DNA from: Labia minor
Lineage: Eukaryota; Arthropoda; Insecta; Dermaptera; Spongiphoridae
DNA: 64,000 nt
Reading direction: 5' to 3'
Assembly (NCBI GenBank): GCA_963082975.1
Contig: OY720346.1
Span: forward strand, 46,043,296 to 46,107,295
Within the stretch, counting starts at the first letter, position 1, and the number at the start of each line of letters is the position of its first letter. The notes under the pieces were generated by a model that searched no databases, was not told where the DNA came from, and saw only the letters and a program-made list of their open reading frames with translations. Positions 5,181 through 31,083 of the stretch are shown here, piece by piece. The position numbers and the translations under genes were made by a program.

Positions 5181-5439
5181 AACGATTCTCAGAGATATAG
5201 ATATATTTGTTAAAATGATGAAAGTTAGATAATTTTATATATTACTAGCTGCTCAGAGCGCCTTCGGCCCCTGTACCCCCGAGTGGTACATAGTATTTGG
5301 TTGAAAGTAGTAAAAGGTTTTCATCCATTTTGTTTCAATCCGTATATTACATAAAACATTCATTTCTTTTTGTGTTCTTATTTAAAATATATTTCAATTT
5401 AATCAGTAAATTAATTATATATATTATTATTGTATATGG

Positions 5440-6330
5440 TATATCTATCTATCTATGTGGCTCAAAGATACTCGAAAGTTCTTGGCCGCAACAACCACAT
5501 TTCTCCAAGTGTCCCTATCCTGAGCCCTTGTCCCATCTCTCTTACGTCCCTTCCTACGCGTCATTGGTTTTCCAAGCGGACGTTTTCTAATCGCGGTCTC
5601 CCCACCAATATATTTTTCTTCTCCCATTCTAGCCACGTGCCCTGCTTATCGCAGCTTTTTCCCTTTTATAACCATAACTATTTCTGAAGATGCAGAGAGG
5701 CCATGCAATTTCTTGTTATGCAGTCTCCCCCATTCCCCGGTGACCTCATCTTTCTTTGGCCAATAAATGCAGGGAAGAATCCTATCCTACAGGCAAAATA
5801 ATTTTTTTATATATTCCCTTTTGATATAATTTTGATGAGATAAACCTCTTTATTGCAAGATAACAGGCGTTTCCCGATTGCAACCCCGATTTAAATTCTT
5901 CTCAAATATTATTATCCTTTGTGATTACATTCAATTTTTCAACATATTCAAATTCTACATTTTGTATCTTAGGATTTTGTATGTTAATACTCTTCCTCTT
6001 TGTTACTAAATATTTTTTCTTATCACTATTAATTTCAAACCTCCATTAATTTTTCCTCGCTATCTGCAATTGCAATTGCCGAATCTCCTATTATATTTAA
6101 GTCGTCTGGGTAACCTAATATTTCACAATTGATTTCCGCATCTTACTCTTTCTTTACTACCTTCAAGACAAATTTGAAGATCAAAATTTGAAAAAGTTTA
6201 TGCTGATCTATATTGAGTCATGCGTATGTTTTACTAAAGTCTACAAATAATTAGTGAACAGAAATATTGAATTCGCGATTTTTTTCCTAATATCTGTCAT
6301 AATGATAATATCTTAATTAATGTTGATCGA
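5440..6330 (-). mobile_element. LINE reverse-transcriptase 3-prime fragment inside Helitron-1 (unit 1)
   Basis: This is the homologue of the LINE piece at 18800-19560. The minus-strand frame at 5445-5636 contains HMARMGEEKYIGG-like and RKRDGTRAQDRDTWRNVVVA peptide, the C-terminus of an RTE-like ORF2. It is shorter than in unit 2, since the LYGWEAW segment is deleted. It is a non-coding remnant. Confidence 0.6.
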
Positions 6331-7196
6331 TTTGGCCTGAACCCGCAATGATATCTCCTAATATTTCCTCCGCCTATGTTTCTTAAGTATTTTCTATGTT
6401 ATAATAGTATAATATATCTTGATCATTACATTTTGATATTTTATTTTCATTGTTAGATTATTATTGAATATTTTTAATTATAATGAAACTTGAGAAAATG
6501 CAAAAATAGAGACTTGAGACAATTTATAAAAATTAACGGTATAAAACTATAGATAAATTATCAATATATACATTCATTAATAGTATTAATTTAAATTAAT
6601 TGATTTATTTGTTTTTTTATTATTAAGTTCATTTATTAATTTTTTTAGATCATAGTTATTTTCCTCCCTTAAAAGAAACTTATCTAATTCTGTGGTGCTA
6701 GGGGATTTGAAAATTATTAGTCGCAATATGAAGATTTCGCTTACAGTTTCTGTCATGTCCGACCTCCGTCCAACAGTTATTTCCCTCAAGTTTCTTGATT
6801 CTCTTAATCATGTGATCTATATATTTAATTTTTTTTGATTCATTGTAATAAAATTTAAACAAATAAAAATTTTCACTTTGTTAATTTATATAAATTTCAA
6901 TTTACACTGATTGTGAGTGATACGCTTTGCCAAGACTCTGAATAATTTTTGTATATAAATATTGAATGTTCTTAGCGAGATTTTTTAACCTTTCACTCTT
7001 TCAAATAGAAAAGAAGAAATATTCAAATATATAGAAAGAATAAATAAAAATTAAGTTAATATAAATATGATTTAAATATTTTATTAAATTAATTAAAATG
7101 GGAACTTTTAGAATAAATTATCTAATTGAATTGATATTTGAATATTAGAATTTAAAATAAAAAGTGATATATTATAATAATTCTTTTATTGGGAAT

Positions 7197-7461
7197 CAGG
7201 GCCGCGACGTGGGTGCAAAGCGCCCGTGTGCAAATTTTTAAAAAGCGCCCCCTTTATCAATAGAACAATAAAAGCTTACCACTTAATTGCTATTGCCACT
7301 AATTTACACTTTTACGCACAATGCTCTAATTCACAGTTTGAATATTTCTAAATAAATTAATAAATTTAAAAATATAGTCAGAATACATAAAATAAAATAG
7401 AATGGTCAGTTTGGCGCCCGTGGGCAGCGCCCACCTTGCACACGTGCACGCCGCGGCCCTG
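7197..7461. mobile_element. hAT MITE with perfect 8 bp TSD
   Basis: Ends are CAGGGCCGCGACGTG and, on the opposite strand, CAGGGCCGCGGCGTG. The flanking direct repeat is TTGGGAAT at 7189-7196 and 7462-7469. The 265 bp element has no transposase. It sits inside Helitron-1 and is absent from the unit 2 copy. Confidence 0.85.
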
Positions 7462-7619
7462 TTGGGAATCTCTATGATAATTCATTGTTTAAAATGCTTC
7501 CGCTAGGGACAGTGAGCCGATAGACGCTCTTGAATGAACAACACGGAGAATTATATAAACTTTAAAAAATTAATTTCTCCGGTTATTGTTTAGATATAAA
7601 TAAAATTTATAGCCTATGT

Positions 7620-8084
7620 CAGAGGTTCTTAAACCTTTGTACTCCGCGGACCCCCACTTGAAAAAAAAATTTTTGACGGACCCCATCCCAACTTTAGGTT
7701 CTTTACGTCATTTTATTAGTTAATTTCTGGCTTACGATCTCATAAGAACAAGGATATATGATGGATATTTCTAACAGTGATTGGTGAATAACGATTTTTT
7801 TGCATATAGTAGAACACATTTTATTAGAAATTATAATATTGAAGAAAGAAAATTCAGCTAAATATGAAGATGGAAACGGTAGCAATAGTTTTCTTGCACA
7901 TTTCGTTGAATTTGGGTATTTGATCTCTGTTTCCTCACAAAGCCATGCCATCGCTTCTTTTATATTATTTAAAGTTTTAACTGACTCATCATTTTCTCGT
8001 GCACCTGTACGATGGCTTTGCGGACCCCTAGTAAAGGCTTCGCGGACCCCCAGGGGTCCGCGGACCACAGTTTAAGGACCTCTG
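7620..8084. mobile_element. hAT MITE (CAGAGGTTCTTAAACC type) with perfect TSD
   Basis: Ends are CAGAGGTTCTTAAAC and the inverted CAGAGGTCCTTAAACTG, each next to a CCGCGGACCCCC-like subterminal block. The target duplication is GCCTATGT at 7612-7619 and 8085-8092. The 465 bp element has no transposase domain; open frames across it are chance. It is nested in Helitron-1 and present only in unit 1. Confidence 0.85.
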
Positions 8085-8312
8085 GCCTATGTTACTCTAG
8101 GGGTATATAAGAATATTGTGATGTAATTTCATAGAAATCGGTTCAGCCAATTCTGAGTCTATAAAATAGTAATTTTCCGGACAGACAGACAGACAGACAT
8201 GAAAAATTCTAAAGTCACTTTTGGATTCTAGAGGTCATGAAACGCGAAGATATGCAAAAATTTTTAAATTCTGAGCAATGTGCAGATAAAAACCTTTTTT
8301 TATATATATAGA

Positions 8313-8913
8313 TTATTATTATTATTATAATCAGAATGTTTTTCTCAAAGAGATTTTTAAAATTATTACTAACTAAAAAAAATCGCCATCTACTATTTAT
8401 TTAGAAAATAAAGCACAGCGGCAAGGTGCCACCCTCTCCTGTGGGCGAATCAATAAACCCATTACTATAAATAGCGAAAAATTCCACAATTGTAAGTACT
8501 GTATCTGTACAACCTTAATAATTTTTATCTCGTAAACTAGAAGCGACCGCCACATACTTCTTAAGGAGAGTTTGTTTTGAATCAAAAAAGGAATCTACTA
8601 GTAAAGTTTTATCAAAATCCATCATACATACATTTAACTAAACAATTACCCAAAACATACCTGGACACTTAAATGCAAGTTTTGAAACCTCCCTGCTTGA
8701 AACAAAGTTTTTACATCTTGCCTAACAAGTAATTCAAGTCGCCCACCAGATCGCAATGCAAGCACCCGCCAGATCGCAGGCCAATTTTAAAGTTAAAAAT
8801 TATATGGCAAAATGGATGGAATCAAGTTTTCATCAATTAATATGAGTTAGCTGCTGTTCTCGTCATTATTATAGTTCAAGAGATTAGTATATTATATATA
8901 TCTTATCTTATCT
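8313..8913. other. Shared 0.6 kb block next to Helitron-1 (unit 1)
   Basis: This sequence is nearly identical to 22560-23165 and lies outside the Helitron 5-prime end in both places. It shows that the two Helitrons are parts of a segmental duplication and not independent insertions. The minus strand has a short open stretch (SGGRLELLVRQDVKTLFQAG, then RFQNLHLSVQ) ending exactly at a good donor (CAG|GTATGT near 8665). This is a possible relic exon that I cannot identify. Confidence 0.5.
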
Positions 8914-8929
8914 TCTTATACTAGTAAAA

Positions 8930-8966
<37 letters not shown>

Positions 8967-10480
8967 GTTCTCAAAAACCGCTCTAACGATTTTTTTGAAA
9001 TTCACACTAGATATAGTATTTATAAAGAAAAATTGAGTTTTATTGATCACATCTTTGGAAAAATACATCTTCATTAGTTTTTCTTAATTTAAATTTATAA
9101 ATGGATGACGTCACAACCACCGCCTGTGAGAGATATATATATCTATTCTTAAAATAAAATTAAAAATATTTATATTATATTCATATTTGATTTTTTTTTT
9201 ACACAATGTTTAGTAGAAGATTTATCTTTATATTCGATTCGATATATATTGGAGAATTAAATGACATTATCAATTTATTATACTCCGGTAAATATTATAA
9301 AATATTATATACTAAATATTCAATTAGTATATATTAGATAAAACATTTATTTGTTTTTGGGTTCTTATTTTTAATATATTTTAATTTAATCAGTAAATTA
9401 AATATATATTTATATTGTAAATGTTATATCTATTTATCTCTGTGTGTCCCTTCATATATTGTAATTCCACCCATAATAATAATAGGTTGGGGAAAAAGAA
9501 ATCCATTATTTTTACGTGAACTTCAAGACTTTATTTAACATGTTTTGCATTGTCCGATTTAGGTCAAATATGCACCATTTTGTTCTATAATTTGTTGCCA
9601 TTTTAATGGTAGCTTCATTATGCCTCTCTCATAAAAGTCTTGGTCCTTATTAGCGAAAAACTCCAGCAATTGATTTTCACACTCTTTCCTTGATGCCAAT
9701 TTCTTATCACTAAAACACGCTTTGACCACGATCGCTTTCGCATAATGTTGTCGTATGTGACCCATTTCTCATCCCCAGTCACCATCCGTTTAAGAAATGG
9801 GTTGATTTCATTACGTTTGGCCAAGGCTTCGCAGATGGAAATTCGATCCATCATGTTTTTTGGTGTTAATTGGTGTGGCACCCAAACATCAAGCTTTTTT
9901 TTAAACCCAGCTTTGTGCAAATGGTTTAAAACTGTTTTGTGGTCGATCTTTAACTCCTGGGCGATGCTACGACTACTAATATGCCGGTCCACTTCGATGA
10001 TTTCAGTGACTTTGTCGACATTTTCGACGACGGGCCTGCCTGTGCGAGGGGCATCCTTAACGTCAAAAATACCCGAACGGAATCGACGAAACCAAAATTG
10101 CGCGTAATTAGCTGTTACAGTATCGGGACCATAAACACTATTCACATTTTCAGCCGCCTGACTTGCATTTTCGCCCTTATCAAAGAAAAACTGTAAAATG
10201 TACCGAATTTTCTCTTTGTTGACTTCCATCTTTAACGCCGTGTAACTCAGAACTGAATGGACAAAACAAAAAACTGCAAACGAATTCTTTTAGTGCGAAC
10301 TGTTACCTTGACAACGAGCATAAATTTGAAATTGTTTGATCGATAATTTACGAGATATCGATCACTACAGCCATCTACCGAAAAAATAATGGATTTCTTT
10401 TTCCCCAACCTAATATTTTAGTACCGGGACGACCGGGACCCCGAGGCTCGGCTCGGTACATAAGTTAAAAAAAAATAATT
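8914..10480 (+). mobile_element. Helitron-like family C copy interrupted by mariner (unit 1)
   Basis: It begins near TCTTATACTAGTAAAAATTG and contains the CAAAAACCGCTCTAACGAT block. It reaches a palindromic GC-rich block (CCGAGGCTCGGCTCGG) at about 10440-10458. The mariner at 9485-10410 sits inside. Related copies are at 17018-18559, 25811-27356 and about 42120-43220. Exact ends are uncertain. Confidence 0.5.
9485..10410 (-). mobile_element. mariner (mellifera-like) transposon, internally deleted, nested in Helitron-like sequence
   Basis: Inverted ends are GGTTGGGGAAAAAGAAATCC with TA duplicated at 9483-9484 and 10411-10412. The 926 bp are shorter than the usual 1.3 kb. On the minus strand the transposase starts at 10229 (MEVNKEKIRYILQFFFDKGE). 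It runs through the HTH region and WVPHQLTPKNMMDR to VTGDEKWVTYDN, which holds the first catalytic Asp. Then comes a deletion or frameshift, and the C-terminus (ECENQLLEFFANKDQDFYER, ...IEQNGAYLT) resumes near 9765-9559. The second and third catalytic Asp are missing, so it is inactive. Confidence 0.88.
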
Positions 10481-11246
10481 CATTATTATTGAGTTTGAAT
10501 TAAAAAATATTGATATACAATTCTTTAATTATTTATTACAATTATTAAATGTTGCATCATTGCATCTATCTGATTAAAATGAATGGGTCCTCAATAATCA
10601 AACAAACAATTTTAGCTAGCATTATAAGATTAATCCAAGTAATATCGTCTATTTCTATTCGACACTATTTTCAGTTATGAAATGAACAGTCAGTATAGAG
10701 TAAAAAAATTGTAATTGTAATATTATATACTAAATATTCAATCAGTATATTAGATAAAACATTTATTTGTTTTTGTGTTCTTACTTTAAATATATTTTAA
10801 TTTAATCAGTAAATTAATTATATATTATTATGGTAAATGTCCCTTCATATATTGTGATTCCAGCCATCTTACTTACTTTTTAATGTCTTCAGTGTTTATT
10901 TAAAAAGGCCAATATATTAAAAAAATTAAATTATAAACATAATAAAAAATATACATCTTCTTTGAATGAGATGAATGTAGATATCAAATTTTAAATAAGT
11001 TGACATAAATAATTAATAATAATTAATAAATAATTCCAATTTATATGATCTTAATATATTTTGAGAATTAGATAAATAATATAGAGAGCAAAAAATATTT
11101 AAAAATAGATATTTATTTAAATGAAATAAAATTATTTAATTTACAGAATGAAAATGTCTACAATAATATCTAAACATTTTTTCTTTATAATTTTACATTA
11201 TAATAATACTAATTACAGTAGTTATATAATATGGGAATTTTCAACT
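10481..11246. other. AT-rich Helitron-like interior
   Basis: No gene is visible. The stretch shares long blocks with 17043-17280, 33030-33130 and 42530-42900 (for example TATTTACAATTATTAAATG, and TTTAAATAAGTTGACATAAA). It appears to be degraded Helitron-like family C sequence linking the mariner-bearing part to the helicase relic. Confidence 0.4.
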
Positions 11247-11402: not shown

Positions 11403-11429
11403 TTAAAAAAATAATTGAAAAGTTAGGCT

Positions 11430-12076
11430 AAGCAGACGTCTTAAATATTATAAGAGATTCGGCAATTGCAATTACAGATAGCGTGGAAAAATTAATGGAG
11501 GTTTGAAATTAATAGTGATAAGAAAAAATATTTAGTGACAAAGAGGAACAGTATTAACATACAAAATCTTAATATACAAAATGTAAAATTTGAATAAGTA
11601 TTTAGAAAAATTGAATGTAATCACGAAGGATAATAATATTTGAGAAGAATTTAAATCGAGGTATCAATCGGGAAACGCCTGTTATCATGCAGTAAAGAGG
11701 CTTATCTCATCAAAATTATTATCAAAGGGAATCAAGACCATGGACGCATAGGAAGGGACGTAAGAGAGATGGGACAAGGGCTCAGGATAGGGACATTTGG
11801 AGAAATGTGGCCAAGAACTTTTGAGTATCTTTGAGCCATATAAATAGATAGATATAACATATACAATAATAATATATATATATAATTAATTTACTGATTA
11901 AATTAAAATATATTTTAAATTTGAACACAAAAAGAAATGAATGTTTTATGTAATATACTGATTGAAACAAAATGGATGAAAACCTTTTACTACTTTTAAC
12001 CAAATACTATGTACCACTGGGGGTACAGGGGGCGGAGCACCCGTCCAGGTGTGAAGAGCGCCGAAGGCGCTCTGAC
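11430..12076 (+). mobile_element. Helitron-1/LINE 3-prime fragment upstream of ankyrin gene A
   Basis: LINE-derived sequence (GAGATTCGGCAATTGCAATT...) leads into the Helitron-1 3-prime tail with hairpin GAGCGCCGAAGGCGCTC and CTGACCAGCTGG at 12057-12076; the usual CTAG is changed to CTGG. It is shared with 24413-24955 in unit 2, so it was present before the duplication. Confidence 0.6.
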
Positions 12077-13294
12077 CAGCTGGTAAGTAGTTATATAAGA
12101 TGCTCAATTTATAGGACTCACATTTATTAGAAATCTTATAGAATTTCCCTGCCCACATGAGAACCTCCCAAGAACAATAAATTGTCCCAACAGAGAAATT
12201 CAATTAAATAAGGAAAATTTATTCTAATAAAATACATGGCTAGCTGTTGAATTCAACCATAAGCATTTCAAATAAATATTAAAAATGTAAAAAATGAAAA
12301 TTCAGATTCTAATTTTTATTATTTATTATATTACAATAAATAAAATAAAACCGGTAATTCCTGATATGAGAGATAAAGAAATTGGAATACTGAAGTATGA
12401 TAAAAAATTGTATTTAATGTTTATGTATATTAAATTTATTTGAAATTAGAAGAAAACTATAGAAAATATAATGGTAAAAGAGAAAAGCGAGTGAAAAGTT
12501 GATGTGGCGGGCGCGCTTGCTGCCGTAACATTCATTGCCTCGCTTCCCGCTTCCAAAGGTTTTTTTTTATAAACATTTATGCAATTTTATAAGAATCAAC
12601 CACTAATTTTGTAGATTTCATATCGTTTCAATTTATATTTTAAGTAGTCGTGTAACTATATGGATAGAGCAAATTTGATTTTTACCTAATTCCCTCTCTA
12701 AATTATAATTAATTTAATAGAAAAAAAAATCCTATAGAAAATATTTGAATTTTTTAAATCCTTACCACACTTTTTGGCATTCCAAATGTTATTACATATA
12801 TACATTTTGAATGCGATAGAACTTTTTAAAGGTTTACATTCAGATTTGAAATCTTTGCATCCGAAAGAAATCCATGGAATTATTATGGATGAAATGCAAA
12901 AATTACTATTCTAGATTTATGTACCAATTTGGTAATACTATTTAAAATAATTATATTTTCAAATAATTTTTATATTTTTCTTATTAAAAAAATATCTTAA
13001 TTTGAGTTTAATTATTTAAAAAGATCAGCCGTAAATAGGTTTAAACTTTTTTTTCTTAAATTTCATTAAATAAATATTATTTTATACAAAGTTGTTTTCA
13101 TTTTATTTTATAAAAAAAAGAAGTGAAAAATAAACAAAATAACTTTGTATTAAAAAGGTGTTTTCTTTTTATTAAAAAAAAAAAACATTGGAGTGTCCTA
13201 GTCAGTTATCGATGGTCTGTGATTCGAATAACATTTATTTAAAGATCGTTGAATTTGAATATCTATATTCGGATAATTAAAAAAAATAAACACA
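12077..13294. other. Upstream region of ankyrin gene A
   Basis: This is AT-rich sequence shared almost base for base with unit 2 (24957-25810 and 27357-28130), apart from insertions there. A GC patch at about 12505-12555 (GATGTGGCGGGCGCGCTTGC) and a short stretch at 13190-13215 before the start codon (TGGAGTGTCCTAGTCAGTTA) are conserved. These are the best candidates for promoter sequence. I see no TATA box that can be trusted in such AT-rich DNA. Confidence 0.35.
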
Positions 13295-16200
13295 ATGGAT
13301 CTAAATTATACTGAAATATTGATGGAAAATAATATTGAAACAATGAATATAAAAAAAGAGTTGGAAATTTCAAAGAAGAAATTTGAAATTCTTTTGAAAT
13401 ATACACAGGTAAAAAAATTTATTATTTATACTTTGTTATTTTCTTACGTTGATTTATTTTTCAATTATTAAATTATAGGAAAATCAAAAAAAGGAAATAA
13501 ATGAATATAATCCATTAAAACAAGAACTTATTTCATTAAAAGAAGACAACATATTTTTAAAGAATAAACTTTTTTCATTAGAAGACAAAATCGGAAAGGT
13601 ATGAATGAAAGTGAAAAATTTTATAATAAAAATACATTTTTTAAAATTATTATCTTTAAAATAGAAAAAATCTTAAAGCATAATACAAGATGCTAAATTT
13701 ATTTATTTCTAATTTGTAATTATTTATTTTCAATTATGTATTCATAATTCAATTATTATATTAAAGAATAATAAATTAGTTGAATATATGTGGTAGCCCT
13801 CATATAACATTTCAAACGATGTATACAGTAGATTAAATATATTTGTATCCATTGGCTATCCTTTTTTAAAAATAGAAAATTAGTAAAATAGTAAGATATT
13901 TAAAAAAGTCTATTGAAATAAAAAATTAATATTAAAGTTTTAAATAATTTAAAAATAATATTTTTTATTAAAGTTGACTAAAATGTAAAAAATTTTATAA
14001 TTTATCAAAAAAATACTTTGAAAACCATCGATAAAAAAAAGCGAATATGGTATAAAAAAGATTGAAAATAAGTGTGAGAGAGATTAATTGCGACGTGACC
14101 TAGAAAGGTCAGAGCAATAAACCAAAACACGTCAACGGAAAAGCACTTTTTTGAAATCAAAATGACTTGAAACATGGATATCTATGAAAAACGCATACCG
14201 ATAGATCGAAAACCTTAGAGATTTTTCCAATTCAAGTCTCATTTTCTTTGTTTAAATTCTAAAAAAAAATTTATCTCATTAGAGATTAAATGTTTATTTT
14301 ATAATTCTCTATAAGTTGTTGAAAATATTTTTTTTTATTTTTTCTATTTTAAGAAATATGGTTATTTTCGTTTTTTGGTACAAATTTATCTTTGTTATTT
14401 AAAGTCGGACAATATTTTTTATAAAATATGAAATTTGTAGAATAAAATTCTCGATAAAAGTTTCATATAAAATTTCCTATACTAAACTATTAATAGTTTA
14501 GGAAAAATGGATATTTTACTTTTTTAATATTTATTTATTTATAAATCTATATATGTAATCGAATATATATATTATTTAATCGAAAATATTGTATTAGTAG
14601 GAAATTATTTTAGTTAATTATATTAGGAGGAAAAACATATTGAAACTAATTAATTTTTTAGGTTATTTCTTCAATTGATGAGTTGAATGAAAATATTTAT
14701 TTTTATTCAGAAAAGGGAGATAATAAAGATATTTTGGAAGCAAGTACATTACATTATGCAGTTAAATCGAGTCATCTAAGATTAATAAAATATTTAATTG
14801 ATAGAGGAGCAAATGTGAACGCACAGAATTCAAGAGGATCCATACCATTACATATTGCATCTCAGAATGGTCATTTAGAAATAATCAAATATTTAATTGA
14901 TAAAGGAGCAAATGTGAATGCAGAGGAATCAGATGGATGGACTCCATTACATTTATCATCTGAGAATGGTCATTTAGAAATAATCAAATATTTAATTGAT
15001 AAAGGAGCAAATGTGAATGCACAGAATCCAAGAGGATCCATACCATTACATATTGCATCTGAGAATGGTCATTTAGAAATAATCAAATATTTAATTGATA
15101 AAGGAGCAATTGTAAATGCAAAGACATCATATGGATGGACTCCATTACATTTATCATCTGAGAAAGGTCATTTAGAAATAATCAAATATTTAATTGATAA
15201 AGGAGCAAATGTGAATGCACAGAATTCAAGAGGATCCATACCATTACATATTGCATCTGAGAATGGTCATTTAGAAATAATCAAATATTCAATTGATAAA
15301 GGAGCAAATGTGAATGCAAAGACAACAGATGGATGGACTCCATTACATTTATCATCTGAGAATGGTCATTTAGAAATAATCAAATATTTAATTGATAAAG
15401 GAGCAAATGTGAATGCAGAGGAATCACATGGATGGACTCCATTATATTTTGCATCTATGAATTGTCATTTAGAAATAATCAAATATTTAATTGATAAAGG
15501 AGCAATTGTAAATGCAAAGACACCATATGGATGGACTCCATTACATTTATTATCATCAGATGGATCGACTCCATTACATATTGCATCTCAGAATGGTCAT
15601 TTAGAAATAATCAAATATTTAATTGATAAAGGAGCAATTGTAAATGCAAAGACACCATATGGATGGACTCCATTACATTTATCATCTGAGAAAGGTCATT
15701 TAGAAATAATCAAATATTTAATTGATAAAGGAGCAATTGTAAATGCAAAGACACCATATGGATGGACTCCATTACATTTATCATCTGAGAAAGGTCATTT
15801 AGAAATAATCAAATATTTAATTGATAAAGGAGCAAATGTGAATGCACAGAATTCAAGAGGATCCATACCATTACATATTGCATCTGAGAATGGTCATTTA
15901 GAAATAATCAAATATTCAATTGATAAAGGAGCAAATGTGAATGCAAAGACAACAGATGGATGGACTCCATTACATTTATCATCTGAGAATGGTCATTTAG
16001 AAATAATCAAATATTTAATTGATAAAGGAGCAATTGTAAATGATAAGAAATCAGATGGATGGACTCCATTACATTTATCATCTAAGAAAGGTCATTTAGA
16101 AATAATCAAATATTCAATTGATAAAGGAGCAAATGTGAATGCAAAGACAACATATGGATGGACTCCATTACATTTATCATCTGAGAATGGTCATTTTGAA

Positions 16201-16746
16201 ATAATCAAATATTTAATTGATAAAGGAGCAAATGTGAATGCAGAGGAATCAGATGGATGGACTCCATTACATATTGCATCTCAGAATGGTCATTTAGAAA
16301 TAATCAAATATTTAATTGATAAAGGAGCAAATGTGAATGCACAGAATTCAAGAGGATCCATACCATTACATATTGCATCTGAGAATGGTCATTTAGAAAT
16401 AATCAAATATTCAATTGATAAAGGAGCAAATGTGAATGCAAAGACAACAGATGGATGGACTCCATTACATTTATCATCTGAGAATGGTCATTTAGAAATA
16501 ATCAAATATTTAATTGATAAAGGAGCAAATGTGAATGCAGAGCTATCCGAAGGGTGCAATTCATTACATATTGCATCTCAGAATGGTCATTTTGAAATAA
16601 TCAAATATTTAATTGATATAGGAGCAAATGTGAATGCAGAGGAATCACATGGATGGACTCCATTACATTTTGCATCTATGAATTGTCATTTAGAAATAAT
16701 CAAATATTTAATTGATAAAGGAGCAAATGTGAATGCAGGTGGATGA
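13295..16746 (+). CDS. Ankyrin gene A: coiled-coil plus about 20 ankyrin repeats (772 aa)
   Basis: Three exons are at 13295-13408 (38 codons), 13479-13598 (40 codons) and 14662-16746 (694 codons plus TGA). All junctions are phase 0 with GT-AG sites (CAG|GTAAAA, AAG|GTATGA, ATTATAG and TTTTTTAG acceptors). Residues 1-95 are Lys/Glu/Leu-rich and look coiled-coil (KKELEISKKKFEILL, LKEDNIFLKNKLFSLEDKI). The rest is about 20 ankyrin repeats of 33 residues (TPLHxxSxxGHLEIIKYLIDKGANVNA) plus one 12-residue stub near 15536. Ankyrin stacks bind proteins; the partner here is unknown. Relative to gene B, 29 codons are missing at the array's start, in frame. The gene lies inside the receptor's first intron on the same strand. 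No signal peptide or transmembrane segment is visible. Confidence 0.82.
14096..14111. promoter_or_regulatory. Everted AGGTCA-type repeat (ER4) in intron 2 of gene A
   Basis: TGACCT-AGAA-AGGTCA is a perfect pair of nuclear-receptor half-sites with a 4 nt spacer. Gene B keeps it as TGACCT-AAAA-AGGTCA at 28932-28947. It could be a hormone-receptor response element or chance, and no other evidence is available. Confidence 0.3.
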
Positions 16747-17017
16747 ACTTACATAATAATATTCACTATTCAAAATCTAATTTTATAAATAAATATTTTA
16801 TACTTTTTATTTTATTATTTTTATATAATTTTCTTTACAATTAAATTTTGAAATTATATTTTTTTTAAATAAACAAAATTTTTGTAAATAAAATTATTCT
16901 TATTTTTTTTCTTTCATTAAATAACTAAATTCCTAATTATTGTTTAAGGACTTTTTGAGTTGATGTTATGAATAGTTTGATTTCATCTAATTGTCAACAT
17001 TTACTTTTACGACTATA
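16747..17017. other. 3-prime flank of ankyrin gene A
   Basis: This AT-rich sequence is shared with 30825-31083. Possible polyadenylation signals (AATAAA-like) are frequent but not specific here. The match to unit 2 ends at TTTACTTTTACGA. Confidence 0.4.
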
Positions 17018-18559
17018 GTACCGGGACACCGAGCTCTCGCTCGACCCTTTAAAAAATATTAATATACAATTCTTTAATTATTTATTACAATTATTAAATG
17101 TGTCATCATTGCATCAATCTGATTAAAATGAATGGAACTGGGGTCCTTAATAATACAAACAAACAATTTTAGCTAGCATAATAAGATTAATCCAAGTAAT
17201 ATCGTCCTTTTCTATTCGAAACTATTTTCAGTTATGAAATGAACAGTCAGTAGAGAGTAAAAAAAATTGTAATTGAAGACCGCCGTTTTTTAAAATAATT
17301 AAATTATTTTATAGATTATAAAATAAAAATTATTGTATTATCATTAAAAATATTGAAATAAAAAATAATAGTTTGATTTAATAAACTAAAACCAGCTGGT
17401 CAGAGCGCATTCGGCGCTCTTCACAGCTGGACGGGTGCTCCGCCCCCTGTACCCCCGAGTGGTTTATCGTATTTGGTTAAAAGTACTGGTACTTAAGTTA
17501 AAAAAATGATTCATTATTATTGGATTTGGCTGGTAATATTAATACCTGGGACACCGAGCATTCGCTCTACCCTTTGAAAAATATTGATATACAATTCTTT
17601 AATTATTTATTACAATTATTAAATGTTACACATTTGCATCAATCTGAGTAAAATGAATGAACTTGTGCTCCTCAATAATACATAAATATATAATATATAC
17701 ATATTTTTTTTTTACTATAGTGTTTTTTTGAAAAACTGTTTAGCGCCCCAAGTGGTTATAAAACAAAGAATTTTAGTTAGTATAATAAGATTAATCCAAG
17801 TAATATCGTCTATTTCTATTCGACACTATTTTCACTCCTTATGGTAGCGGCCCAGTCGATGATGTTATATGGATCGTTAATTAACCATTAACCATTCACC
17901 GAATCGCCATTCAAATAATAACATACAAACAGAAAAGTAGGCGTGTTGATATAAAATATATACCTGTGACACCGAACTATCACTCGACCCTTTAACCAAT
18001 TTATACAATTTATTTTTATATACTTTAAAAATTTTACAATTTTTTAATTTAATCAGTAAATTAATTATATATTATTATTATTATTTGTGTCCCTTCATAC
18101 AAAATATAAATTCTCTTTTTTGATATGTTTTCCTAATATTTTATAATATTTACCGGAGTATAATAAATTGATAACGTTATTTAATTCTCCTACTATATAT
18201 CGAATCGAATATAAAGATAAATCTTCAAAACGTTGTGTGAAACAATTTCAAATAATTTAAATGTAAAACTATTAATGAAATAAAAAAAAATCAAATATAT
18301 GAATATAATATAAATATTTTTAATTTTATTTTAAGAATAGATATATATATCTCACATGCGGTGGTTGTGACGTCACATATATACATTTAAATTTAGAAGA
18401 AAAAAACTAATAAAAATGTAGTTTTCGTGAGATTTGATCAATAAAACTCAATTTTTCTTTATAAATACTATCTCGGGTGTGAATTTCAAAAAAATCGTTA
18501 GAGCGGTTTTTGAGAACAAAGAAAGAAACAAACAAACAATTTTTACTCGTATAAGAAGA
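17018..18559 (-). mobile_element. Helitron-like family C sequence between the two units
   Basis: Read on the minus strand, it begins with TCTTATACGAGTAAAAATTG directly beside the CTAG end of unit 2 and includes the ACCGCTCTAACGATTTTTTT block. Three palindromic GC-rich blocks (ACACCGAGCTCTCGCTCGAC and relatives at about 17027, 17550 and 17970) and a fragment of Helitron-1 3-prime end (17397-17480) are embedded. It is a mosaic of broken copies with no gene. Confidence 0.45.
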
Positions 18560-18799
18560 CTAGCTGCTCAGAGCGCCTTCGGCGCTCTTCACACCTAGAC
18601 GGGGGCTCCGCCCCCTGTACCCCCGAGTGGTACATAGTATTTGGTGGTTGAAAGTAGTAAAAGGTTTTCATCCATTTTGTTTCAATCCGTATATTACATA
18701 AAACATTCATTTCTTTTTGTGTTCTTATTTAAAAAATATATTTTAATTTAATCAGTAAATTAATTATATATATTATTATTATTGTATATGTTATATCTA

Positions 18800-19560
18800 T
18801 CTACCTATGTGGCTCAAAGATACTCGAAAGTTCTTAGCCGCAACAACCACATTTCTCCAAGTGTCCCTATCTTGAGCCCTTGTTCCATCTCTCTTACGTC
18901 CCTTCCTACGCGTCATTGGTTTTCCAAGCGGACGTTTTCCAATCGGTCTTCCCACCAATATCTTTTTCCTCTCCCATTCTAGCCACGTGCCCTGCCTATC
19001 GCTTTTATAACCCTAACTATTTCTGAAGATGCAGAGAGGCCATGCAATTTCTTGTTATGCAGTCTCCCCCATTCCCCGGTGACCTCATCTTTCTTTGGCC
19101 AATAAATGCAGGGAAGAATCCTATTCTCAAACACTCTGAATCTACTCTCATCTCCCAGGGTCATAGACCATGCCTCCCACCCATATAATGCAACAGGCAA
19201 AATAATTTTTTTATATATTCCCTTTGATAATAATTTTGAAGAGATAAGCCTCTTTATTGCAAGATAACAGGCGTTTCCCGATTGCAACCCCGATTTAAAT
19301 TCTTCTCAAATATTATTATCCTTCGTGATTACATTCAATTTTTCTACATATTCAAATTCTACATTTTGTATCTTAAGATTTTGTATGTTAATACTCTTCC
19401 TCTTTGTTACTAAATATTTTTTCTTATCACTATTAATTTCAAACCTCCATTAATTTTTCCTCGCTATCTGCAATTGCAATTTCCTAATCTCCTATTATAT
19501 TTAAGTCGTCTGGGTAACCTTACATTTTACAATTGATTTCCGCATCTTATTCTTTCTTTA
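18800..19560 (-). mobile_element. LINE reverse-transcriptase 3-prime fragment inside Helitron-1
   Basis: The minus-strand frame at 18979-19287 reads SGNACYLAIKRLISSKLL, then KIILPVALYGWEAWSMTLGD, ESRFRVFENRILPCIY and KKDEVTGEWGRLHNKKLHGL. This is the typical end of an RTE-like LINE ORF2 (compare YGxExWxLxxxDExRLxxFExxxLRxIYGP). The tail of the same ORF continues in another frame toward about 18800 (AQDRDTWRNVVVAAKNFR). It is broken by frameshifts and has no 5-prime part. The same fragment occurs at the same place in every Helitron-1 copy, so it was probably captured once before the Helitron spread. Confidence 0.7.
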
Positions 19561-21089
19561 CTACCTTCAAGACAAATTTGAAGATCAAAATTTGAAAAAG
19601 TTTATGCTGATCTATATTGAGTCATGTGTATGTTTTACTAAAGTCTACAAATAATTAGTAAACAGAAATATTGAATTCGCGGTTTTTTCCTAATATCTGC
19701 CATAATGAAAATATCTTAATTAATGTTGATCGATTTGGCCTGAACCCGCAATGATATCTCCTAATATTTCCTCCGCCTATGGTTCTTAAGTATTTTCTAT
19801 GTTATAATATTTCTTGATCATTACATTTTGGTATTTTATTTTCATTGCTAGATTATTATTGAATATTTTTAATTATAATGAAACTTGAGAAAATGCAAAA
19901 ATAGAGACTTGAGACAATTTATAAAAATTAACGGTATAAAACTATAGATAAATTATCAATATATACATTCATTAATAGTATTAATTTAAATTAATTGATT
20001 TATTTGTTTTTTTATTATTAAGTTCATTTATTAATTTTTTTAGATCATAGTTATTTTCCTTAAAAGAAACTTAAATTCTGTGGTGCTAGGGGATTTGAAA
20101 ATTATTCGTCGCAATATGAAGATTTCGCTTACAGTTTCTGTCATGTCCGACCTCCATCCAACAGTTATTTTCTGTCAAGTTTTTTGCTTCTCTTAATCAT
20201 GTGATCTATATATTTAATTTTTTTTGATTCATTATAATAAAATTTAAACAAATAAAAATTTTTACTTTCTTAATTTATATAAATTTCAATATAAACTGAT
20301 TGTGAGTGATACGCTTAGCCAATACTCTGAATAATTTGTGTATAAAAATATTGAATGTTCTTAGCGAGATTTGATATAATGTTGTACGATTTGTCCTAAA
20401 TCTGAATTAGAAGAAAATTATAAATTGCCTCCTCTTCCAGCCCAATTCATTTACCCACCCATGTTGCATATGGCATCTAAATTTCTTAAAACTCCGTTTT
20501 TTTAATTTAAAATAGAAGGAGAGAAAGAGTTTTAAATTATATTCGAATAGTAATATTTTTTTTCTGAATTTAATAGCAAGTTGATTTTAAAAATTTTCCA
20601 TTCTTAATGCATATGATTGATTACATGTGTTAAAATTAAAAAAAATTCAAATATTCTAATTTTTATATTTATATACAATTTAATATTATTTTTTATTAAT
20701 ATCATATCAAAAAAGAGAATTTATTAAAAATTAAAAATAAAAAAAGAAGCCTATTAATAAAAAATTGAATGGTGATTTAAATATTTTATTAAATTAATTA
20801 AAATGAGACCTTTTAGAATAAATTATTTAATTGAAATGATATTTAAATATAAGAATTTAAAAAAATATTATATTCTTTGTTTGGCAATTGTTATTTAATT
20901 ATGTGCAACATGATTCGACTTGCACAGAGCATCGTTATTTTTTATTAATATCACATAATAAAAATGAATCTTTTAAACATAATAAATAAAAAAGACATTT
21001 TAATAAATTTAAAAAATATACCCAATTTAAAAATGTCAAAAATTTAAAACAACTTTATATCATCATATTTTAATTTTTATATAATATAT

Positions 21090-21835
21090 TGTCGTATATA
21101 AGAGGTAAAGTGGGTGAGGTATTTTATAAGAAAAATTTGGTTAAAATAAGTTTAATTAATTGGTAGCACTCTGGATGAATTTTGGATAATTAAAAGGGTT
21201 ATTGAATCCGCGTAGGTTGATATGGGAAATAATAAGATTGAATAGGTTCAATTTGAAATGCTTATATAAAATTATAACAAATTATTTATTTAATAAAACT
21301 AGGAGACTTAAATTTACAAAATAGATAATAATGAAATTAATATAAAATAGAACATATTGAAAGGTACCGTAAAATAGAAATATAAATTAAAAGAAATTTA
21401 ATTTATATTTTAGCAATTGCAATTATAATTAATTATTAATTATGAAAGTGTTATCACTTAGCATGAAAGAAAGGAATGGAGAGTTCATTGGAGACTTGAG
21501 TCCTGATTGTCTTCCTGCGGATTTAACTGGAACATCTCTTGTGCAGCAACATTTCTCAAAAAGGGGTTGTGTATGATGTCCTTCCTGCAGGGATATGTCT
21601 GTCTCCCTCCAATGCCTGATCAAGCCTAACTCAACTATCTCATTTTCACCAATAATCAAACCTTCCCCCACTTTGAACACATGGATGGGTCCCTGTACAT
21701 GTGCAGACAACATGTCCCATGACCAAACGTCCTTTTCTTTAATTTAGCACCATGTGTTCAAAAATGAAAGTTCTAGCTTTCGCATTATGATATACATAAA
21801 AAATGTATTTTTTAGGATTATATATTACAATATAT
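21090..21835. other. Unidentified 0.75 kb insertion with a less AT-rich core
   Basis: Compared with the related Helitron-1 sequence at about 4200-4260, unit 2 carries about 745 extra bases here between ATATAATATAT and TATATATTTAG. The core (about 21440-21750) is markedly less AT-rich and has a 94-codon minus-strand frame (MLSAHVQGPIHVFKVGEG...). I do not recognise the peptide and see no terminal repeats. It could be a captured gene fragment or part of an unknown element. Confidence 0.45.
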
Positions 21836-22559
21836 ATATATTTAGTAATTAATAATAGAGTAATTAAATTAAAATAAAAAACAAAGATAATATAATTCAG
21901 TCATTTTAATTCAGGTTAAATAATTTTTTTTTTTATTATTCAATGATAAAATTTATATATTATTATGTATATATTATAGAAAAGAAGAAATATTCAATTA
22001 AATAAAAAATAATTTAAGATAAAAATATGATCTAATAAATATTTTAATTAAATTGAGAACTTTTAGAATAAATTATTTAATTGAATTGATATTTGTATAT
22101 TAGAATTTAAAATAAAAAGTGAAATATTTTTTATAATAATTCTTTGATTGGGAATAGCTATGATAATTCATTGTTTGAAATGATTCCGCTAGGCCGGCAG
22201 TGAGCCGCGAGCTGCTCTTGAATGAACAACACGGAGAATTATATAAACTTTAAAAAATTAATTTCTGCGGTTATTGATAAGATATTAATAAAATTTATAG
22301 CCTATGTTACTCTAGAGGTATATAAGAATATTGTGATGTAATTTCAAAGAAATCGGTTCAGCCAATTCTGAGTCTATAAAATAGTAATTTTCCGGACAGA
22401 CAGACAGACAGACAGACCGACAGACAGACAGACAGACAGACAGACGTGAAAAATTCTAAAGTCACTTTTGGATTCTAGAGGTCATGAAACGCGAAGATAT
22501 GCAAAAATTTTTAAATTCTGAGCAATGTGCAGACAAAAACCTTTTTTTATATATATAGA

Positions 22560-24955: not shown

Positions 24956-25810
24956 GTTATATAAGATGCTCAATTTATAGGACTCACATTTATTAGAAAT
25001 CTTATAGAATTTCCCTGCCAACATGAGAACCTCCCAAGAACAATAAATTGTCCCAACAGAGAAATTCAATTAAATAAGGAAAATTTATTCTAATAAAATA
25101 CATGGCTAGCTGTTGAATTCAACCATAAGCATTTCAAATAAATATTAAAAATGTAAAAAATGAAAATTCAGATTCTAATTTTTATTATTTATTATATTAC
25201 AATAAATAAAATAAAACCGGTAATGCCTGATATGAGATAAAGAAATTGGAATACTGAAGTATGATAAAAAATTTTATTTAATGTTTATGTATATTAAATT
25301 TATTTGAAATTAGAAGAAAACTATAGAAAATATAATGGTAAAAGAGAAAAGCGAGTGAAAAGTTGATGTGGCGGGCAAGCGCGCCCGTAACATTCATTGC
25401 CTCGCTTCCCGCTTCCAAAGGTTTTTTTTTATAAACATTTATGCAATTTTATAAGAATCAACCACTAATTTTGTAGATTTCATATCGTTTCAATTTATAT
25501 TTTAAGCAGTCGTGTAACTATATGGATAGAGCAAATTTGATTTTTACCTAATTCCCTCTCTAAATTATAATTAATTTAATAGAAAAAAAATTCATATAGA
25601 AAATATTTGAATTTTTTAAATCCTTACCACACTTTTTGGCATTCCAAATGTTATTACATATATACATTTTGAATGCGATAGAACTTTTTAAAGGTTTACG
25701 TTCAGATTTGAAATCTTTGCATCCGAAAGAAATCCATGGAATTATTATGGATGAAATGCAAAAATTACTATTCTAGATTTATATACCAATTTGGTAATAC
25801 TATTTAAAAT

Positions 25811-27356: not shown

Positions 27357-27492
27357 AAATAATTATATTTTCAAATATTTTTTATATTTTTCTTATTAAA
27401 AAAATATCTTAATTTGAGTTTAATTATTTAAAAAGATCAGCCATAAATAGGTTTAAACTTTTTTTTCTTAAATTTCATTAAATAAATATTAT

Positions 27493-27905
27493 ATGGAAGC
27501 ATGGACACTCAAGGTCAGTACGATGAATCGCCTGGAGGCTTTTGAGATGTGGATCCTCAGGCGAATGCTGCGAATTCCCTGGGTCGAGAGAGTTACCAAC
27601 AGGGATGTCTTGAGGAGAGCAAACACACAGCGAGAACTCCTCAACACTGTCAAATGCCGGAAAATCTCTTACCTCGGCCACATCTTGAGAGGTAATAAAT
27701 ATCAACTCCTTCAATTAATCCTCAAAGGGAAAATTGAGGGTCGACGTGGACCCGGGAGAAGACGCCAATCCTGGTTAGGGAATATCAGGGAATGGACCGG
27801 CATAAGGAGCGTGGGAGAGCTGTTCCGCACGGCGGAAAATAGAGACGTTTTCGCCAGAGTGATCGCCGACGTCAGGGAGACCGGACAAGGCACTTGAAGA
27901 AGAAG
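27493..27905 (+). mobile_element. 5-prime-truncated LINE with 9 bp TSD (unit 2 only)
   Basis: The open frame at 27493-27897 (MEAWTLKVSTMNRLEAFEMW..., RRMLRIPWVERVTNRDVLRR, YLGHILRG, GPGRRRQSWLGNIREW) is the C-terminal part of a non-LTR ORF2 common in insects. A GAA-repeat tail follows. AAATATTAT is duplicated at 27484-27492 and 27906-27914. The empty site in unit 1 lies at about 13080. The intact frame and GC-richness suggest a recent insertion. The catalytic reverse-transcriptase part is absent. Confidence 0.85.
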
Positions 27906-28130
27906 AAATATTATTTTATACAAAGTTGTTTTCATTTTATTTTATAAAAAAAAGAAGTGAAAAATAAACAAAATAACTTTGTATTAAAAAGGTTGTTTTC
28001 TTTTTATTAAAAAAAAAAAAACATTGGAGTGTCCTAGTCAGTTATCGATGGTCTCTGATTCGAATAACATTTATTTAAAGATCGTTGAATTTGAATATCT
28101 ATATTCGGATAATTAAAAAAAATAAACACA

Positions 28131-30549
28131 ATGGATCTAAATTATACTGAAATATTGATGGAAAATAATATTGAAACAATGAATATAAAAAAAGAGTTGG
28201 AAATTTCAAAGAAGAAATTTGAAATTCTTTTGAAATATACACAGGTAAAAAAATTTATTATTTATACTTTGTTATTTTCTTACGTTGATTTATTTTTCAA
28301 TTATTAAATTATAGGAAAATCAAAAAAAGGAAATAAATGAATATAATCCATTAAAACAAGAACTTATTTCATTAAAAGAAGACAACATATTTTTAAAGAA
28401 TAAACTTTTTTCATTAGAAGACAAAATCGGAAAGGTATGAATGAAAGTGAAAAATTTTATAATAAAAATACATTTTTTAAAATTATTATCTTTAAAATAG
28501 AAAAAATCTTAAAGCATAATACAAGATGCTAAATTTATTTATTTCTAATTTGTAATTATTTATTTTCAATTATGTATTCATAATTCAATTATTATATTAA
28601 AGAATAATAAATTAGTTGAATATATGTGGTAGCCCTCATATAACATTTCAAACGATGTATACAGTAGATTAAATATATTTGTATCCATTGGCTATCCTTT
28701 TTTAAAAATAGAAAATTAGTAAAATAGTAAGATATTTAAAAAAGTCTATTGAAATAAAAAATTAATATTAAAGTTTTAAATAATTTAAAAATAATATTTT
28801 TTATTAAAGTTGACTAAAATGTAAAAAAATTTATAATTTATCAAAAAAATACTTTGAAAACCATCGATAAAAAAAAGCGAATATGGTATAAAAAAGATTG
28901 AAAATAAGTGTGAGAGAGATTAATTGCGACGTGACCTAAAAAGGTCAGAGCAATAAACCAAAACACGTCAACGGCAAAAGCACTTTTTTGAAATCAAAAT
29001 TACTTGAAACATGGATATCTATGAAAAACGCATACCGATAGATCGAAAACCTTAGAGAATTTCCAATTCAAGTCTCATTTTCTTTGTTTAAATTCTAAAA
29101 AAAAATTTATCTCATTAGAGATTAAATGTTTATTTTATAATTCTCTATAAGTTGTTGAAAATATTTTTTTTTATTTTTTCTATTTTAAGAAATATGGTTA
29201 TTTTCGTTTTTTGGTACAAATTTATCTTTGTTATTTAAAGTTGGACATTTTTTATAAAAGATGAAATTTGTAGAATAAAATTCTCGATAAAAGTTTCATA
29301 TAAAATTTCCTATACTAAACTATTAATAGTTTATGAAAAATGGATATTTTACTTATTTAATATTTATTTATTTATAAATCTATGTATGTAATCGAATATA
29401 TATATATATTATTTAATCGAAAATATTGTATTAGTAGTAAATTATTTTAGTTAATTATATTAGGAGGAAAAACATTTTGAAACTAATTAATTTTTTTAGG
29501 TTATTTCTTCAATTGATGAGTTGAATGAAAATATTTATTTTTATCCAGAAAAGGGAGATAATAAAGATATTTTGGAAGCAAGTAAAAAGGGAGATATAAA
29601 AGCTATTATATATTTCTGTATTTTACAATCATCAAATATTAATATAAAAAATAAGGATGGGGATCATACTCCATTACATTATGCAGTTAGATCGAGTCAT
29701 CTAAGAATAATCAAATATTTAATTGATAGAGGAGCAAATGTGAATGCAGAGGGATCAAATGGATGCACTCCATTACATATTGCATCTGAGAATGGTCATT
29801 TAGAAATAATCAAATATTTAATTGATAAAGGAGCAAATGTGAATGCAGAGGTATCAGAAGGGTGGAATCCATTACATATTGCATCTCACAATGGTCATTT
29901 AGAAACAATCAAATATTTAATTGATAAAGGAGCAAATGTGAATGCAGAGGTATCAGATGGATCGACTCCATTACATATTGCATCTGAAAATGGTCATTTA
30001 GAAATAATCAAATATTTAATTGATAAAGGAGCAAATGTGAATGCAGAGGTATCAGATGGATGGACTCCATTACATATTGCATCTGAGAATGGTCATTTAG
30101 AAATAATCAAATATTTAATTGATGAAGGAGTAAATGTGAATGCAAAGAATTCAAGAGGAATCATACCATTACATAATGCATCTCAGAATGGTCATTTAAA
30201 AATAATCAAATATTTAATTGATAAAGGAGCAAATGTGAATGCAGAGGTATCAGATGGATGGAATCCATTACATATTGCATCTCAGTATGGTCATTTAGAA
30301 ATAATCAAATATTTAATTGATAAAGGAGCAAATGTGAATGCAAAGAATTCAAGAGGATCCATACCATTACATATTGCATCTCAGCATGGTCATTTAGAAA
30401 TAATCAAATATTTAATTGATAAAGGAGCAAATGTGAATGCAAAGACAACAGATGGATGGACTCCATTATATATTGCATCTCAGAATGGTCATTTAGAAAT
30501 AATCAAATATTTAATTGATAAAGGAGCAAATGCTAAGGCAAAGGATTAA
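28131..30549 (+). CDS. Ankyrin gene B: coiled-coil plus about 9-10 ankyrin repeats (427 aa)
   Basis: This is the paralogue of gene A with the same three-exon structure: 28131-28244, 28315-28434 and 29500-30549 (349 codons plus TAA). The first two exons encode the same peptide as in gene A, and the introns are almost identical. Exon 3 keeps a capping repeat that gene A lost (DILEASKKGDIKAIIYF), then nine 33-residue repeats. The last repeat ends GANAKAKD before the stop. A decayed further repeat and the ancestral 3-prime end are visible to about 30830, so the open frame is shorter than the ancestral gene. It is probably still expressible because start, splice sites and frame are all intact. Function is unknown beyond protein binding. 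Confidence 0.8.
28932..28947. promoter_or_regulatory. Everted AGGTCA-type repeat (ER4) in intron 2 of gene B
   Basis: This is the counterpart of 14096-14111. Both half-sites are unchanged while one spacer base differs. Conservation is weak evidence because the whole intron is almost identical. Confidence 0.28.
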
Positions 30550-30830
30550 AATGAATGGGCTTTATTATTCAGGGTGTCCGATAAGTAATCAAAGTAACAC
30601 TTTTAGGACACCCTGTATATAATATATATCATCTCACAATGAATACTCTTAGAAATAATAAAATAATTATTTTATTTTATATGGATCCACATAGCATTCA
30701 AGTTGAATATCTTCATTATATTTATATAAATATATATATTACCATCTCACAATGGACATTTAGAAATAATAAAATATATAATTGATAAATTTGACAATTG
30801 TGAATGCAGATGGATGAACTCACATAATAA
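30550..30830 (+). pseudogene. Decayed 3-prime end of ankyrin gene B
   Basis: After the gene B stop, the sequence at about 30752-30825 can be read as a degenerate repeat (SHNGHLEIIKYIIDK...). It ends in GAATGCAGATGGATGAACT, matching the last codons and stop of gene A at 16729-16749. From there both copies share the same 3-prime flank (CATAATAATATTCACTATTC and onward). A second relic lies at about 30629-30660. A 46 bp TIR element (30570-30615) separates the present stop from these relics. Gene B therefore lost its original C-terminal repeats. Confidence 0.65.
30570..30615. mobile_element. 46 bp miniature TIR element in gene B 3-prime region
   Basis: CAGGGTGTCC and its inverse GGACACCCTG bound 46 bp. 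This terminus is typical of Tc1/mariner-type elements. It lies just past the gene B stop and is absent from gene A. Confidence 0.55.
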
Positions 30831-31083
30831 TATTCACTATTCAAAATCTAATTTTATAAATAAAATTTTTATAATTTTTATTTTATTATCTTTTATATTT
30901 TTCTTTACAATTAAATTTGGAAATTATATTTTTTTTAAATAAACAAAATTTTTGTAAATTAAATTATTCTTATATTTTTTCTTTCATTAAATAACTAAAT
31001 CCCTAATTATTGTTTAAGGACTTTTTGAGATGATATTTTGAATAGTTTGATTTCATGTATTTGTCAACATTTACTTTTACGAG

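Follow-up and report, generated by a model that had tools for sequence, protein, structure and literature searches.

A mosaic pair of ankyrin genes bordered by Helitrons in an intron of a putative receptor gene of Labia minor

A stretch of 64,000 nucleotides from the dermapteran insect Labia minor (GenBank assembly GCA_963082975.1, contig OY720346.1; hereafter the window, C4:46043296-46107295) carries two ankyrin genes in tandem inside an intron of a gene that appears to encode a G-protein-coupled receptor (GPCR). Judged from the sequence, the two units, U1 (5245-17017) and U2 (18560-31087), are recent duplicates only from the Helitron at their left border to late intron 2 of the ankyrin gene, and their ankyrin exons and 3' flanks appear to have separate histories, belonging to different branches of the gene family. 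The explanation that we favour, with moderate confidence, is that unequal recombination between two directly repeated Helitrons made the pair and that ectopic recombination gave its two members different repeat exons. Processes of this kind are already known, and the interest lies in the worked-out mosaic.

Block order and divergence of the two units

Self-BLAST of the window recovered four blocks in the same order and orientation in U1 and U2, as the first-pass annotation had stated. The aligned pairs are 5244-5268/18559-18583 (100% identical), 5262-6983 against 18606-20372 (two pieces, 93-95% counting gaps), 8085-8957/22300-23207, 11503-12949/24415-25811, 12931-13080/27343-27492, 13069-15750/27903-30543, and 16673-17017/30743-31087. 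The 0.6 kb that was said to be shared outside the Helitron ends is indeed present in both units (8313-8957/22560-23207), and about half of it (8330-8655) is a dispersed repeat. Among the best 40 of 2156 candidates, U2 is the only full-length match to U1 for 8330-8890 (99%), and 8633-8859 also occurs at one place near an ankyrin copy on contig C2.

Counted as substitutions with gaps excluded, the divergence between U1 and U2 is uneven, at about 3% in the Helitrons, 0-1.4% in the core and 5.9-8.4% in the 3' flank. The Helitron at the left border differs at 15/514 (5262-5788) and 39/1179 (5789-6983) positions, and the second one, Helitron B, at 16/536 (11503-12085). Differences amount to 12/869 at 8085-8957, to 12/860 (12086-12949), 3/150 (12931-13080) and 2/227 (13069-13295) in the 5' flank, and to 0/113 in exon 1 and 0/120 in exon 2. 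The introns, previously described as nearly identical, were compared by the unit alignment that had been proposed as a check, and they differ at 0/70 (intron 1) and 11/1059 (intron 2) positions. Upstream of the ankyrin exon, divergence is thus 1.0-1.4% in the longer blocks that do not belong to the main bodies of the Helitrons (8085-8957, 12086-12949 and intron 2). The 3' flank differs at 16/270 positions (5.9%) at 16747-17017 and at 29/344 (8.4%) at 16673-17017, a range that takes in the final 74 bp of the U1 coding sequence and the corresponding U2 positions. Helitron blocks are more diverged than host blocks within the same unit (p=1e-5), so the ~3% in the Helitrons need not mark an older event. 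A stretch of 771 bp (13222-13992/28058-28828) contains no difference at all, against 17/1237 upstream (p=5e-4), and is perhaps a very recent conversion tract.

A recombination breakpoint in intron 2

U1 and U2 were compared with their nearest copies, C4iA and C4iB (C4:45.816 and 45.829 Mb, minus strand; together C4i), C2a (C2:22.077 Mb) and C2b (C2:28.557 Mb), and the relationships switch ~160-290 bp upstream of exon 3. U1 and U2 possess 10 private shared sites from 13231 to 14370, and all differences between them up to 14223 are changes unique to U1 or U2. Beyond that, the single-nucleotide polymorphisms at 14501, 14522, 14601 and 14707, together with the length of a T-run, place U1 with C2a and C2b, and U2 with C4iA and C4iB. 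Moreover, an 87-bp (29-codon) deletion in exon 3 is carried by U1, C2a and C2b and is absent from U2, C4iA and C4iB. The order of the 14 diagnostic sites is perfect (p=0.001); sites 14747-14791 beside the deletion, which depend on the gap alignment, and sites 14406, 14427, 14551 and 14639, where the four relatives split uncleanly, were not counted. The deletion looks rare, and among the exon-3 head matches listed (best 150 of 918), the two heads split by it are those of U1 and C2a; in C2b it is visible in the DNA. The translated heads read YSEKGD..EAS(T/I)LHY in U1 and C2a, and YPEKGD..EASKKGDIKAIIYFC in U2 and C4i.

Divergence between the units rises from 11/1434 in the 5' half to 29/344 in the 3' flank (p=2e-13), and two control pairs show no such 3' jump (9/435 vs 10/338, and 5/306 vs 17/584). 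The pair at C4:45.8 Mb shows the reverse, with 85/1428 differences in the 5' part and 12/619 in the 3' part (p=4e-5). This minus-strand ankyrin pair (C4:45814837-45827969), 230 kb away, has the opposite mosaic, with 0/278 differences in the distal 3' flank.

Helitrons and the left border

Helitrons begin with TC at the 5' end, terminate in CTRR with a hairpin at the 3' end, and insert between A and T. Six 3' termini with CTAG or CTGG after a G+C-rich hairpin (at most 3 mismatches) are present in the window, at 5245, 17392, 18560 and 36400 on the plus strand and at 58830 and 12083 on the minus strand, and the base outside the terminus fits (T in the element sense) in 6/6 cases. The 5' end TC, reading TCTATATATATAAAAAAAGG.., is located at 8312 in U1, at 22559 in U2, and in C4i, where the Helitron copy has T rather than A before the 5' end, unlike the A/T insertion rule.

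Helitron A of U1, which hosts nested insertions and has its CTAG and hairpin at 5245, is inserted in a (TTA)n tract (left ..TATATATTA, right TTATTATTATT..), and its two flanks, ATTA/TTAT (the slash marks the insertion point), fit an A/T insertion without target duplication. Its target reads ...ATATTA/TTATTATT..., and the Helitron of U2 is flanked by AAGA, the tail of a short interspersed element (SINE), on the left and by TTATTATT on the right. In other copies of this SINE-like element the tail reads AAGATAAGATAAGAT or shorter. A query across the SINE-Helitron junction, for which the best 40 of 1485 candidates were scored, matched the window itself, two loci that cross the junction (85-86%) and 37 that end at the SINE, the latter confined to query positions 1-180 with 97-99% identity. 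At the two junction-crossing loci, related Helitrons occupy this SINE tail too, shifted onward by one 5-bp unit, so the left junction of U2 is taken as a true Helitron insertion, unlike that of U1. The U2 Helitron therefore joins the left site of one insertion to the right site of another and is a recombinant. The SINE-like element has 1485 candidates in the genome, and its (TAAGA)n tail serves as a Helitron landing site.

Within the Helitron, the divergence between U1 and U2 steps from 13/158 at 7462-7619 to 12/867 at 8085-8957 (p=2e-5), which fits a switch near 8 kb. The U2 copy of Helitron B lies at ~24415-24949 and is without the final bases.

Origin of the pair

In the favoured explanation, a host ankyrin gene would have resided in the GPCR intron with a Helitron upstream in the (TTA)n tract, and a second Helitron of the same orientation would have inserted downstream in the SINE tail. 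Misaligned pairing and exchange would then have placed the upstream flank next to the downstream Helitron, leaving a tandem pair. Since the SINE-Helitron lies downstream of gene 1 and runs in the same direction as Helitron A, an exchange between them duplicates the sequence in between. Duplication by recombination between repeats predicts that homologous repeats in direct orientation border the unit and that the repeat at the junction is recombinant; both were found, and the exchange was probably an unequal crossover. In a separate step, before or after pair formation, one copy or both would have swapped the ankyrin exon and 3' end with dispersed family members, through homologous recombination within and close to the array. 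This swap may have been a gene conversion or may reflect an earlier allelic difference, and its direction is conjectural.

Several observations weigh against this explanation. U1 and U2 form a clade in the 5' tree with support of 91/93, not starred; intron 2 was added to exons 1-2 for this tree, as U1 and U2 are identical in those exons, and the distant C10 row was dropped. By the approximately unbiased (AU) test, C4iA and C4iB as sisters were not rejected in the 5' tree (p-AU 0.31), nor were U1 and U2 as sisters in the 3'-flank tree (p-AU 0.46). The test of U2, C4iA, C4iB, C2a and C2b as one clade in the latter (p-AU 0.084) was not used. The 3' flank of U1 is 95% identical to C4iB, 94% to U2, 93% to C4iA and C2a and 92% to C2b, as well as 94% to a further C2 copy over part of its length, among 13 strong genome matches including itself. 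It is thus about equally distant from C4iB, U2, C4iA, C2a and C2b (92-95%) and, unlike the exon-3 head, not C2-like, so more than one exchange is needed. Furthermore, the second SINE-Helitron expected after U2 from a crossover between identical chromatids is not present within the window, and the 10 kb beyond the window share one repeat >100 bp with window positions 1-33000, so it has to be assumed that the exchange involved two different haplotypes or that the element was lost later. Finally, the left part of the Helitron (5262-6800) is ~3% diverged though it supposedly stems from a different insertion; Helitron B in the duplicated core is also ~3% diverged (16/536), so this value is not decisive.

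The main rival, which we consider possible but rather unlikely, starts from a more ancient tandem pair with 8-9% divergence, where the 5' half of one gene was recently overwritten by that of the other through one gene conversion tract. The tract would have its left end in the Helitron and its right end in intron 2, and no recent duplication would be needed. Both ends of the low-divergence core do lie within or beside homologous repeats, and divergence outside it is at family level (16/176 at 7005-7196, 13/158 at 7462-7619 and 29/344 in the 3' flank); the 771-bp difference-free stretch resembles a still younger tract. However, the outer left part (5262-6800) is diverged by ~3% and not by 8-9%, and the low-divergence blocks total ~5.5 kb without private inserts, which is long for a conversion tract.

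A single 12-kb tandem duplication, as claimed in the first-pass annotation, with a 3' part that merely evolves faster, is improbable. It would account for the shared order and direction of the blocks, quicker change is expected in repeat arrays, and the 3'-flank tree does not reject it. However, shared sites change partners at 14370-14501 and the deletion of U1 is common to copies on another contig, so a rate difference alone is insufficient; two other pairs are also without 3' acceleration. The recent shared block stops short of the ankyrin exon, at 14370-14501/29206-29334, the left junctions of the units differ, and neither even divergence nor a single genealogy was found along the unit. The order of older shared insertions followed by younger unit-private ones stands, and the single duplication placed between them finds no support in the form proposed.

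Capture of the whole ankyrin gene by a Helitron, with rolling-circle re-insertion into the SINE tail to make U2, is very unlikely. U2 does begin exactly at the Helitron 3' terminus, inserted after A in the SINE tail, which is what a copy carried by a Helitron should show. The remainder of that tail, TAAGATAAGA (1 mismatch allowed), was sought after U2 on the plus strand of the window and was not there. Against capture, pieces of the U2 3' flank remain collinear with other ankyrin loci (as far as 32164 with the C2 copies and to 31372 with those at C4:45.8 Mb), and Helitrons are not enriched near other ankyrin copies, covering 6849/180000 bases of 18 stretches (3.8%) vs 1478/40000 bases of 8 controls (3.7%). 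Helitron coverage is 84/20000 in two 10-kb stretches beside the window, and 1631/5243 and 2663/32900 in the remaining window sequence beyond the units. Least likely of all is an assembly artefact of collapsed or duplicated haplotypes. Two haplotypes joined head to tail could yield 1% divergence and different insertions, but the assembly has 71 contigs and the one with the pair is 86 Mb long and contains it 46 Mb from its start; close pairs on one strand are also seen among the other ankyrin copies, and divergence between the 3' ends reaches 8%.

The ankyrin genes and their family

Gene 1 and gene 2 each have three exons with an open frame, of 772 and 427 aa, respectively, and both retain GT-AG sites. 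Each could give a protein with a short head, by eye resembling a coiled coil, followed by an ankyrin solenoid, and each is predicted to be transcribed from its own promoter. Pfam assigned Ank_4 to 20 stretches in U1 (E=2.7e-213), and the arrays of U1 and U2 have the 99-bp period of 33-residue ankyrin repeats. The counterpart of the 5' flank in U2 (24951-25811 and 27343-28130) is split by private insertions, and homology to more distant ankyrin paralogs begins at 13222.

The arrays bear marks of internal turnover. The same 198-bp block occurs three times in the U1 array with zero differences, the repeats at 15180, 15807 and 16302 being identical, and likewise those at 15279, 15906 and 16401. 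The nearest relative of a full repeat lies inside the same array for 17/19 repeats of U1 (in U2 for 2/19, at 16203 and 16500) and for 6/8 of U2 (in U1 for 2/8), with ties scored as inside and one partial unit per array omitted. The arrays may thus keep altering their length through internal unequal exchange.

These genes belong to a large dispersed family. At least 72 places on contigs C1, C2, C4, C5, C6, C9 and C10 match the exon-3 head at E<=1e-10, as counted among the best 150 of 918 candidates, where two places may represent one gene. Exons 1-2 are open in 12 of 13 aligned copies, C2b being incomplete because the start of exon 1 is missing from the aligned stretch. The start ATG is replaced by ATA, read as I, in 2/13 copies (C4iA and one C9 copy), and intron 1 begins with GC instead of GT in one (C10). 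Exon-3 frames range from 33 to 694 aa among 12 heads obtained by motif search in the fetched stretches and the window, and exon 3 of C2b and of one C9 copy meets a stop within 40 aa. The ratio of nonsynonymous to synonymous change in exons 1-2, calculated for 7 pairs with few sites (~38 synonymous; C2b left out for its incomplete exon 1), is 0.61-0.96 in five and undefined in two without synonymous change. Family members at C1:19001214 and C10:42977246 have open frames of 3539 and 2870 codons.

The insertions described as private to each unit are real. The miniature inverted-repeat transposable element (MITE) of hAT type and the mariner-like stretch of U1, and the two elements with target-site duplications (TSD) in U2, are later private insertions. 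One of the latter, at ~25812-27347, has a 14-bp target duplication, and the reading frame in the other, which resembles a long interspersed element (LINE) by eye only, gave no Pfam match. In C2b, U1 positions 8859 and 12300 are adjacent, so either C2b lost the stretch between them or this stretch arrived after the loci had separated.

Host gene and genomic setting

The assembly comprises 604 Mb, and the window has a G+C content of 27.7%. The host gene is classified, from its predicted exons, as a class B/adhesion-type GPCR. The three plus-strand exons, with borders set by eye in phase 0, matched PF00002 (7tm_2) when joined (E=4.1e-10; the join extended 4 residues beyond the donor site of the middle exon), and their best match in the Protein Data Bank (PDB) was adhesion receptor D1 (E=0.0018). 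Both ankyrin genes lie in its 46.7-kb intron (1059-47732) on the same strand as the GPCR, which supports the earlier description of the locus. The first exon on its own has no Pfam or PDB match, and no GPCR exon was found for the stretch between the second and third exons. A genome-wide exon-wise search for 7tm_2 yielded 16 matches, none at this locus.

A ~0.6-kb repeat occurs many times in the GPCR gene (2735-3325, 35121-35775, 41444-42102, 43512-44137, 45187-46516, 51221-51851 and 59882-60508), and its two copies at 45187-46516 form a 95% palindrome. A G+C-rich 28-bp tandem repeat with 98% matches (55611-55701) stands in A+T-rich surroundings. The Rfam scan gave no match, and neither did Pfam on five further reading frames at E<=0.01.

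Table 1. Features of the two units and of the host gene (TM, transmembrane segment; TIR, terminal inverted repeat).
Feature	Position	Strand	Basis or remark
GPCR exon, TM1-TM2 region	894..1058	+	ends by eye at AG/GT sites; sequence
Helitron A of U1	5245..8312	-	3' terminus 5245, 5' end 8312; termini and flanks
hAT-type MITE, U1-private	7620..8084		TIR CAGAGG..CCTCTG, 8-bp TSD GCCTATGT
Mariner-like transposase remnant, U1-private	9618..10289	-	HTH_48/Mos1; no U2 match
Helitron B of U1, orientation opposite to A	11409..12083	+	3' end CTGG/T
Shared 5' flank and probable promoter region, gene 1	12086..13294	+	U1/U2 comparison
Ankyrin gene 1, exon 1	13295..13408	+	aligned copies
Ankyrin gene 1, exon 2	13479..13598	+	aligned copies
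Recombination breakpoint, late intron 2 of gene 1	14370..14501 (U2 29206-29334)		site patterns
Ankyrin gene 1, exon 3	14662..16746	+	C2-type head, 87-bp deletion, 99-bp ankyrin array
3' flank of gene 1	16747..17017	+	cut at 17017 by transposon nest
Spacer between units, nested transposon fragments	17017..18133		sequence comparison
SINE-like element, young, high-copy (label by eye)	18134..18559	+	(TAAGA)n tail interrupted by U2 Helitron
Helitron of U2	18560..22559	-	left end in SINE tail, right junction that of Helitron A
U2-private insertion, LINE-like by eye only	27493..27902	+	reading frame, TSD AAATATTAT
Ankyrin gene 2, exon 1	28131..28244	+	aligned copies
Ankyrin gene 2, exon 2	28315..28434	+	aligned copies
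Ankyrin gene 2, exon 3	29500..30549	+	C4i-type head, without deletion
3' flank of gene 2	30743..32164	+	collinear in pieces with other copies
GPCR exon, TM3-TM4 region	47733..47912	+	PF00002 E=9.4e-6 for 47733-47927; sequence
GPCR exon, TM5/6 region	63480..63725	+	PF00002 E=5.8e-4, 19.6 bits, just under the curated cut-off of 20.6; sequence

Comparison with known systems and significance

The literature searched contained no paper on such an ankyrin exon exchange, which is weak evidence. To our knowledge, no Helitron-bounded unit has been described in the spidroin clusters of Argiope. These clustered, repeat-rich genes resemble the ankyrin pair in that they both diversify and homogenise, according to parts of the report on them (PMC9779670), and differ from it in being silk genes. 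Exchange between paralogous transposon copies can yield tandem duplications, as set out in sections of a review (PMC9659126). In contrast to the duplications treated there, the recombinant Helitron here is recognisable by its two target sites and the unit contains a gene; unlike typical Helitrons, the copies are mosaic and carry insertions.

The hnwd genes (het-d/e/r) of Podospora anserina are a similar repeat-domain family, whose arrays recombine frequently within and between members and undergo concerted evolution, as sections of that study describe (PMC2873952). The hnwd products are fungal STAND proteins with WD repeats and a known function in allorecognition, whereas ankyrin repeats of an animal are concerned here, and the mosaicism reaches beyond the repeats to the 3' flank and some of an intron. 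By analogy with these fungal allorecognition genes, we tentatively speculate, at long odds, that the family might be a diversifying repertoire, in which a conserved front cassette (promoter and head exons) would be joined to varied ankyrin-array exons across chromosomes via recombination in intron 2 and the array, the host intron serving as a transcribed home.

At base resolution, the locus illustrates how a gene pair can be reshaped by two transposon copies together with a repeat-coding exon. The two genes are ~1% apart in their front halves and their ankyrin exons come from different branches of the family, which calls for caution when duplicates are dated or named from one part. The locus also yields a set of exon-exchange breakpoints that can be tested in this large ankyrin family.

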